Made by a program: the position numbers and the translations under genes
In this document: piece after piece, positions 4,834 to 7,516 of the stretch
How positions within the stretch are numbered: position 1 is the first letter of the stretch
Layout: the number at the start of each line of letters is the position of its first letter
The notes under the pieces: model-generated
The model's database searches: none
Seen by the model: only the letters and a program-made list of their open reading frames with translations
What the model was told of the DNA's origin: nothing
DNA from: Aliarcobacter sp.
GTDB lineage: Bacteria > Campylobacterota > Campylobacteria > Campylobacterales > Arcobacteraceae
Reading direction: 5' to 3'
Length of the DNA stretch: 35,739 bases
NCBI GenBank assembly: GCA_028681275.1
Contig: JAQUIV010000009.1
Coordinates: forward strand, 1-35,739

Positions 4834-5034
4834 ATGGAAATAATAGAAACACTAAATACTAAAATTGATAAATTAATTCACGACTATGATAGATTGCGAT
4901 TAGAGAATCAGTCATTACAACAAGAATTAGATTCTATGAAAAATGAAAATGATGAACTAATAAGAAACAATCAGGATATGTTTCTAAGAATAGATAGTAC
5001 ATTAACGTTAATAAAGGCACGAAATAGTGAATAA
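4834..5034 (+). CDS. Small coiled-coil protein (ZapB-like)
   Basis: 66 aa heptad-rich sequence, overlaps the next ORF by 8 nt. Confidence 0.65.
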   Translation: MEIIETLNTKIDKLIHDYDRLRLENQSLQQELDSMKNENDELIRNNQDMFLRIDSTLTLIKARNSE

Positions 5035-5236
5035 AGAAGTGACATTTCATATAAATAATATGGCATATACTATAACTATCGATGAAAATATATATTCAGA
5101 ACTTTCAAAATATCTCGATTTAGAGAAAAATAATGATACTAAAGATTTATTGATAGCATATTTGCGATTATCTCAGGAATATCATGTATTTAAAAAAGAT
5201 GTAGAAGAAATTACAAATAAACTTTCAAGGTTTTAA
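5027..5236 (+). CDS. ZapA-like cell division protein
   Basis: Short MNKEVTFHINNMAYTITID.. ORF with ZapA-like beta hairpin followed by helices; context with a coiled-coil gene. Confidence 0.55.
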   Translation: MNKEVTFHINNMAYTITIDENIYSELSKYLDLEKNNDTKDLLIAYLRLSQEYHVFKKDVEEITNKLSRF

Positions 5237-5237
5237 A

Positions 5238-5669
5238 ATTAGAAGTTTTTCCCTATTAGAAGTGATAATAGCTATAATTTTAATAGCTATTGTTATCTCT
5301 TTTGCTATCCCTAAATTTACAAATTTAAATTATAATAAAAACATAACTACTTTAAAATCTCAATTAGCTTTAATCCAAAATGGAATTGTTAATCAAAAAA
5401 GTAAAAATATTTTACTTTCAAATAATCAAGAAATAGACTCTTTGGATGAAGCTACTTTGAATAGTAGCGGAGAAAAACTTTTCTCAAAAGTAATAGATTT
5501 TTCAATAATCTCAACAAATAACACAAAAAAAGAGTCTGGAATGTGGGCAAAAATATCAAATAATTCTTATACTTTTTATTTTTCAACTGATAAAAATATT
5601 GAATTTTCATTTGAAAATGAAAAGTTTTTATGTAAAAGTAGTGTTGAATTATGCAAAGAGATTAACTAA
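5238..5669 (+). CDS. Orphan type IV pilin-like / pseudopilin protein (prepilin N-terminal cleavage/methylation motif); start codon non-canonical or uncertain
   Basis: Frame upstream of the listed GTG 5262 reads IRSFSLLEVIIAIILIAIVISFAIPKF, a class III signal peptide with E5; AAGG at 5227-5230 precedes ATT 5238. Confidence 0.75.
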   Translation: MRSFSLLEVIIAIILIAIVISFAIPKFTNLNYNKNITTLKSQLALIQNGIVNQKSKNILLSNNQEIDSLDEATLNSSGEKLFSKVIDFSIISTNNTKKESGMWAKISNNSYTFYFSTDKNIEFSFENEKFLCKSSVELCKEIN

Positions 5670-7516
5670 TGTTTTATTATGAATTAGCCCTTTTAAAATC
5701 ACCTTTAAATAATCTAACTTTTCAAAGTGAAGAAAAAATAGAAATAGGTTTTAAAGTAAAAGTAAAACTTCAACAAAGAAAAAATTTAGATGAAGCAGTT
5801 GTAATAAAAGAGGTTGAAAAACCAACTTTTAAGTGTACAAATATTTCTGAAGTTACGAATGAGTATTTTGATGAAAAAATGCTTCTAATTGCCACTTTTG
5901 TGTCTATGTATTATGTTTGTTCTTTAGGTGAAGCTTTAAGTGTTTATAACTGTTTTGATAAAAATATCGTAAAAGTTTTAGATGAAGAGAAGTTTGATAG
6001 TAAAATAGTTTTATCCCAAGAGCAAGAAAAAGCAAAAAGATTTTTAGATGAAAAAAAGCAAGCTTTACTTTTTGCAAATACAGGTGCTGGAAAAACAGAA
6101 GTTTATATAAAAATCATAGAAGAACATTTAAACCAAAATAAACAAGCAATTTTATTAATGCCTGAAATTTCCCTAACTCCTCAAATGGAAAAAAGACTTG
6201 AAAAAGTTTTTAAAAAAAGTGTAGCTATTTGGCACTCAAAAATTACAAAAAAGAAAAAAGACGAGATTTTACATGGACTTCAAGAGGGAACTATAAAATT
6301 AATTGCAGGTGCTAGGTCAGCTCTATTTTTGCCATATTCAGATTTAGGTGTAATTGTGGTTGATGAAGAACATGATGAATCTTATAAAAGTGATTCAAAA
6401 CCTAGATTTCATACAAAAGATTTAGCTATTTATATGGCAAAAAAGTTTGATATTCAACTAGTTTTAGGAAGTGCAACTGTAAGTGCAAGTTCATTTCATA
6501 AAATCCCATTTTTTAGACTTGAATCAACTTACCATGATACAAATAAATCTTATAGTTTTGACGATAGTGATGCAAATTTATCAAATAAAATCATAGATAA
6601 AATAGCAAAAACTATAAATAGTGGAAATCAAGTAATTGTATTTTTGCCAACAAGAGCAAACTTTAAATATCAAATTTGCACAACTTGTGGAAAATCAGTT
6701 GAGTGTCCTTATTGTTCAGTTTCTATGAGTTTACATAAAAATGATTTGGCTTTAAAATGTCACTATTGTGGATATGCTCAACAAATTCCAGAAACTTGTC
6801 CCTCTTGCCATAGTGGAATAATTCATAACCTAAGAGTTGGAACTGCTCAAATTGAAGAGGAATTAAAAGAGTTATTTCCTCAAAAAGTTATAAAAAGATT
6901 CGACCGTGACCAAATAAAAACAAATAGCCAATTAAAAACCATATTAAATGAGTTTAACAAAGGTGAAATTGATATTTTAGTTGGAACTCAAATGCTTTCA
7001 AAAGGGCATGATTATCACAATGTAAAACTTGCTGTTGTTTTAGGAATTGATTCAGTTTTAAATATGAATTCTTATAAAGCCAGAGAAAAAGCTCTTTCAT
7101 TACTTATTCAAATATCAGGAAGAAGTGGACGGAAAGGTGAGGGTGAAGTAATAATTCAAACAAAAAATGAAGAGTTTTTTAATCACTATTTAAATGATTC
7201 AAATTATAAAGAGTTTTTAGAGAGTGAATTAGAGTTTCGACAAGAGCTTTATCCACCATTTTTAAAGATGGCAAAAATTACATTTTCCCATGCAAATGGA
7301 CTTAAAATAAAAGATGAAATGGATTCTTATGTTCATGTTTTAAAAGCAAATAAAGATATTGAAGTTGTAGGATTTGGGCAAAGTCCTATTTTTAAAATGG
7401 CAAATAAATATCGATATGAAATCCTTGTTCGTTCAAACAATATAAAAGCACTTTTAAATGCACTTCATAGCATTCAAAGCCCAAATGCTTCAATAGATAT
7501 GGATACAATTTACTAA
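5669..7516 (+). CDS. priA: Primosomal protein N' (replication restart helicase PriA)
   Basis: LLFANTGAGKTEVYI, VVDEEHDESYKSD, zinc-binding CTTCGKSVECPYCSVS...CHYCGY..CPSCHS, GTQMLSKGHDY. Confidence 0.95.
   Translation: MFYYELALLKSPLNNLTFQSEEKIEIGFKVKVKLQQRKNLDEAVVIKEVEKPTFKCTNISEVTNEYFDEKMLLIATFVSMYYVCSLGEALSVYNCFDKNIVKVLDEEKFDSKIVLSQEQEKAKRFLDEKKQALLFANTGAGKTEVYIKIIEEHLNQNKQAILLMPEISLTPQMEKRLEKVFKKSVAIWHSKITKKKKDEILHGLQEGTIKLIAGARSALFLPYSDLGVIVVDEEHDESYKSDSKPRFHTKDLAIYMAKKFDIQLVLGSATVSASSFHKIPFFRLESTYHDTNKSYSFDDSDANLSNKIIDKIAKTINSGNQVIVFLPTRANFKYQICTTCGKSVECPYCSVSMSLHKNDLALKCHYCGYAQQIPETCPSCHSGIIHNLRVGTAQIEEELKELFPQKVIKRFDRDQIKTNSQLKTILNEFNKGEIDILVGTQMLSKGHDYHNVKLAVVLGIDSVLNMNSYKAREKALSLLIQISGRSGRKGEGEVIIQTKNEEFFNHYLNDSNYKEFLESELEFRQELYPPFLKMAKITFSHANGLKIKDEMDSYVHVLKANKDIEVVGFGQSPIFKMANKYRYEILVRSNNIKALLNALHSIQSPNASIDMDTIY

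Follow-up and report, generated by a model that had tools for sequence, protein, structure and literature searches.

The pilin-like gene that lies between a zapA-like gene and priA in Aliarcobacter almost certainly begins at an ATT codon, and not at ATG, as judged from the orthologous loci of the genus. We examined the gene in a 35,739-nucleotide stretch of Aliarcobacter sp. DNA (hereafter, the window) and propose that it encodes a minor pilin or pseudopilin. Translation is very probably started at ATT 5238–5240 by the fMet initiator tRNA, with the ribosome placed by an AAGG Shine-Dalgarno (SD) sequence and probably helped by termination on the zapA-like gene; the output would be low and the leader would be removed.

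The pilin-like gene and its product

The order of genes at the locus is zapB-like (4834–5034), zapA-like, pilin-like and priA, of which the succession of zapA-like and pilin-like genes was read across the genus and the family. The zapA-like gene (5027–5236, + strand) is present in the open reading frame (ORF) list as a 69-residue protein with a GTG start at 5027; its match to Pfam ZapA, with an E value of only 0.05, lies below the cut-off. This ORF ends in TTT-TAA (5231–5236), the stop codon TAA (5234–5236, + strand) being located 1 nt before the proposed pilin-like start codon ATT (5238–5240, + strand), and the SD sequence AAGG (5227–5230, + strand) is found within its last codons, 7 nt upstream of the ATT. 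The pilin-like gene (5238–5669, + strand) comprises 143 codons plus a stop codon, TAA 5667–5669, which overlaps the ATG at 5669 (TAATG) of priA (5669–7516, + strand, from the ORF list); the downstream junctions were read in the genus. No RNA structure was found at the zapA-like/pilin junction (z = −0.11).

The pilin-like frame is open from position 5205, after the in-frame stop codon TAG at 5202–5204. Re-reading of the window bore out both the coordinates of the original prediction and its statement that no ATG, GTG or TTG precedes the class III signal peptide: none of these codons was found in this frame between 5205 and 5261, where it reads KKLQINFQGFKIRSFSLLEV. In the window ORF, GTG 5262–5264 (+ strand) is the earliest canonical start and the codon picked by gene calling that admits only ATG, GTG and TTG. 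If it were the true start, the protein would be a truncated, non-processed remnant, which we regard as extremely improbable, for the GTG lies inside the hydrophobic helix, a canonical codon is found at its position only in L004, L005 and L007, many orthologues lack a canonical start throughout their first 25 codons despite a conserved K-x-F-S-x-x-E, and a start there would remove the cleavage site.

The signal peptide belongs to class III: F1, S2 and E5 do not vary among the 21 orthologues aligned, and a hydrophobic helix follows. The leader positions are also kept, with K/R at −2 and A/S/G at −1. In the window the predicted leader, fMet-Arg-Ser (5238–5246, + strand), is very short, and cleavage would take place before Phe 5247. 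The aligned orthologues all share two C-terminal cysteines and a W-x-K motif. On residues 12–34 of the stop-to-stop translation, the Pfam N_methyl family (PF07963, prepilin motif) scores 20.5 bits (E = 3e-4), just missing the cut-off of 21.2. The AlphaFold2 model (pLDDT 88) displays an N-terminal helix (residues 6–59) that is followed by a C-terminal β-sheet, and a Foldseek comparison of this model with the PDB gave no significant match (best 1oqw, E = 1.4).

These properties draw a parallel to type IV/type II minor pseudopilins (N_methyl PF07963; GspG-like), with which the protein shares the class III signal peptide with Phe1 and Glu5, the long N-terminal helix and the presence of a prepilin peptidase in the genome. 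Unlike them, it has no close solved structure, and its gene in the window is located between the zapA-like gene and priA and not beside pilus genes. A prepilin peptidase (PF01478) and a T2SS/T4P-type ATPase (PF00437) are encoded elsewhere in the genome in 8 of 8 genomes tested, and a second, paralogous pseudopilin in the genome has a plain ATG start.

Of the 31 genus genomes 30 gave a pilin-like match, as did 100 of the 101 family genomes searched, where some of the weaker matches may be the paralogue. The copy of one genome (L030 / L056, G014:C1:1473557-1473973) carries an apparent frameshift near the C-terminus and one in-frame TAG. Although this copy could be taken to point to a pseudogene or a sequencing error, either is hardly credible as an account of the gene, as the protein is intact and conserved in almost all genomes of the genus. 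Furthermore, a canonical start is likewise lacking in most members of the genus, several of them independent one-contig assemblies, and its absence is not due to a sequencing error.

The start codon across orthologues

To compare orthologues, we counted codons back from Phe+1, such that codon −3 corresponds to the window ATT 5238 and codon −4 precedes it. The comparison covered Aliarcobacter (g1, the window genus), a neighbouring genus represented by a single genome (g15) and two sister genera (g18 and g4). Codon −3 in the 31 g1 and g15 genomes is ATA (11), ATC (8), ATT (6) or a different codon (6). ATH (H being A, C or T) is thus found at this position in 25 of 31 genomes (24 of 30 in Aliarcobacter and the g15 genome) versus 2 of 11 in g18 and g4, whose pilins start with an ordinary ATG at codon −4 that abuts the zapA-like stop codon. 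ATG never occupies codon −3 in these 24 Aliarcobacter orthologues or in the g15 genome, an absence that is not significant alone because G accounts for 17% of ATN triplets, giving about 0.13 for 11 independent states. The situation that the original prediction had named as damaging to it, namely homologues with ATG at this position and an error specific to this strain, is not what the alignment of the 25 ATH-bearing orthologues displays.

All 25 orthologues with ATH carry AGG 7–8 nt upstream of it, and in those of the genus the zapA stop codon lies 0–2 nt before the start codon. The codon just before ATH is AAA, AAT, AGA, GAA, GAT, GCA or even TAA; to judge from the alignment, this variation is the pattern expected of untranslated sequence. 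On the pilin tree rooted on genus g9, g1 and g15 form one clade. The minimum numbers of base changes at the three positions for the 25 ATH tips are 0, 0 and 10 in codon −3 and 4, 2 and 4 in codon −4. The reverse pattern is seen in g18 and g4 (0, 0 and 0 in codon −4; 4, 6 and 5 in codon −3), and the first two bases of codon −3 are fixed solely in genomes that have lost the ATG of codon −4. Read from these counts, the start constraint is shifted by one codon between g18/g4 and g1 plus g15. The 0, 0, 10 pattern alone does not establish initiation, because a conserved elongator Ile codon would give an equal pattern, and the case for initiation, which is built from sequence, rests mostly on the stop codons, the missing starts and the changing frames.

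Not all members of the genus conform. A clade of six (L025–L030) has AAA, CTC or CTT at codon −3, upstream of which the frame stays open and offers TTG candidates, and L005–L007 have a TTG at codon −5 as an alternative start; these genomes may use a different start. The shortness of the three-residue leader also speaks against codon −3 as the start.

The original prediction had further suggested that ribosomes could slip by +1 at the TTT-TAA end of the zapA-like gene, such that programmed frameshifting would produce a ZapA–pilin fusion. The zapA-like gene is indeed one base out of frame and ends in TTT-TAA, TTT-TGA or TTT-TAG in the window and in most genus members, and that of L020 ends in CTT-TGA. 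However, the relation of the zapA and pilin frames is −1 in L005, L006, L007, L009 and L014, and it is 0 in L023, in which a TAA directly precedes ATA. Among the closest relatives the frame is changed by indels, with ATH, SD and stop codon retained, and the pilins of the sister genera begin with a free ATG. As the relation is +1, −1 or 0 depending on the species, a fusion can be dismissed as a mechanism common to the orthologues. A conserved slippery site with a fixed frame relation, by which prfB-like cases are recognised, was not found across the genus orthologues. Overall, we judge a programmed +1 slip to be very improbable.

Initiation at ATT agrees with the features by which the AUH class of starts (AUA, AUC or AUU) is recognised. 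Between the upstream stop codon and the essential N-terminal residues, the window and most of the genus have no usable ATG, GTG or TTG; the SD sequence stands at normal spacing in 25 of 25; and the conserved non-canonical codon has a canonical counterpart in outgroups, an ATG one codon away for the pilin-like gene and a start at the same codon for TatD, described below.

AUH starts in other genes

Since a conserved Ile at codon −3 would look alike, we sought AUH genes that can be checked against outgroups. The survey set an 800-kb stretch of G025 against one of equal length from G029, amounting to about 620 orthologue pairs, with an SD filter, and candidates were judged by eye. A version without the SD filter was abandoned, its matches being mainly conserved stretches that precede ordinary starts, together with an apparently spurious rRNA-derived ORF. 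Candidates q1946, q1279, q143, q1172 and q1283 were not accepted on account of an ordinary start nearby or ambiguity. The survey yielded four further genes with conserved AUH starts, which encode a TetR-like regulator, TatD, a UbiB-like kinase and FtsK.

Besides the window genus, 14 Arcobacteraceae genera were read for tatD (L333–L362, L388–L407 and L408–L422): the start is ATA, ATT or ATC in 12 of them, GTG in g5 and an ATG one codon earlier in g12. Of 20 genomes from other families, 19 have ATG, TTG or GTG at exactly this codon and one is ambiguous. In L403 (G258, family f9), AAA is found at the usual start position and is followed by ATT ATT GAT, possibly another AUU start. The ATA of tatD in G025 overlaps the stop codon of the upstream gene (ATAA). 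In the cell-division gene ftsK (L303–L332 and L428–L457), ATA, ATC or ATT with an AAAGG SD is found in nearly all Arcobacteraceae genera read and, outside this family, in three other Campylobacterales genomes (L454, L456 and L457); g16 has TTG one codon later, and several orthologues contain an in-frame stop two codons upstream of the AUH. The UbiB/AarF-like kinase gene (L363–L385) has an ATA conserved in 21 genus loci; at G025:C1:1490964 this ATA overlaps the stop codon of an upstream coiled-coil gene (AATAA).

The gene of the TetR-like regulator starts with ATT or ATA in the window genus, g15, g18, g4 and some g9, and the same codon is TTG, GTG or ATG in other genera. Its start is weak almost everywhere (ATT, ATA, TTG, GTG, rarely ATG; L213–L262, G025:C1:1092905) and is accompanied by a good AAGGA SD. 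The codon preceding the start varies freely in the tatD, TetR-like and ftsK genes. On this comparative reading, AUH codons stand in for canonical starts at the corresponding positions of other Arcobacteraceae genes.

The TetR-like gene bears on a further explanation, in which ribosomes that stop on zapA reinitiate near the SD, the identity of the codon being of little account and the AUH incidental. The stop codon at 0–2 nt and the ever-present SD are in keeping with such reinitiation, but bases 1 and 2 of the start codon never change while the preceding codon does, and an AUH also occurs in the TetR-like gene, which begins a good distance downstream of the end of the preceding gene. Codon-indifferent reinitiation is improbable in our assessment, and it is compatible with initiation at ATT 5238 rather than opposed to it.

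Discussion

The proposal that ATT 5238 with its AAGG SD is the start of the pilin-like gene is strongly supported by the comparison across orthologues, from which we infer that translation starts here with low yield, that it is sensitive to IF3 and coupled to the zapA-like gene, and that the leader is cleaved. The AAGG 7 nt upstream would position the ribosome at ATT 5238, where the initiator tRNA would pair with the AUH codon despite the third-position mismatch. Because IF3 disfavours such a mismatch, the output of the gene is expected to be low. Ribosomes that finish the zapA-like gene would probably aid the start by termination–reinitiation, as the distance of 1 nt between the stop codon and the start means that terminating ribosomes may supply it. 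The expected product is a small amount of a pilus subunit, the fMet-Arg-Ser leader of which would be cut off before Phe.

The original prediction regarded ATT starts as known mainly for infC. This gene is a known case, but so are pcnB, cvfC1, ccpN and others, and starts of this type recur here in at least five genes, which makes the statement too restrictive. For Escherichia coli, an AUU start that limits translation is described for infC (PMC5472188) and for pcnB (cited in PMC13009471). The pilin-like gene in the window likewise has AUU, although its codon drifts freely among AUA, AUC and AUU in orthologues. Aliarcobacter infC itself has an invariant TTG (L143–L172), in contrast to the AUU, AUC or AUA of E. 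coli, Streptomyces or Staphylococcus aureus, and we rejected IF3-style autoregulation by analogy with infC on this ground. The conserved non-canonical starts of S. aureus ccpN (AUA) and cvfC1 (AUU) give about 10% of the output of AUG (PMC13009471), and one of them belongs to a transcription repressor, akin to the TetR-like gene here; they have an extended SD as opposed to a short AAGG and an abutting upstream gene, and their output was measured whereas ours is deduced from sequence. The Streptomyces sigR start is similarly rare, clade-conserved and variable in its third base (GTC/GTT), but it is GUC and not AUH; it is repressed by IF3 and misannotated in genomes (PMC5472188).

We found no report of AUH starts in Campylobacterota in the open-access literature searched, and none is mentioned in the passages that a term search located in the papers on Campylobacter jejuni Ribo-seq (PMC11955535), the A. 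butzleri genome (PMC2147049) and A. butzleri transformation (PMC8308473). The first A. butzleri genome had its genes called with ATG, GTG and TTG only (PMC2147049).

In teaching, AUH starts usually figure as a curiosity of one or two genes (infC, pcnB). In the present comparison, such a start is apparently kept on a pilin in one genus and conserved across a family (tatD) or beyond (ftsK). It is possible, though on balance doubtful, that the Campylobacterales harbour a deeply conserved set of AUH-started genes (ftsK, tatD, TetR-like, UbiB-like, pilin and probably more), with infC outside it, that would be jointly set by start-codon fidelity through the level of IF3 and would thus constitute a translational regulon hidden by gene callers. 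Given conserved AUH starts in several genes, standard annotation probably misplaces the N-termini of these proteins. Whether weak starts are retained because they hold down the amounts of low-copy proteins, and what number of N-termini gene callers restricted to ATG, GTG and TTG have misannotated, are questions that can now be tested.
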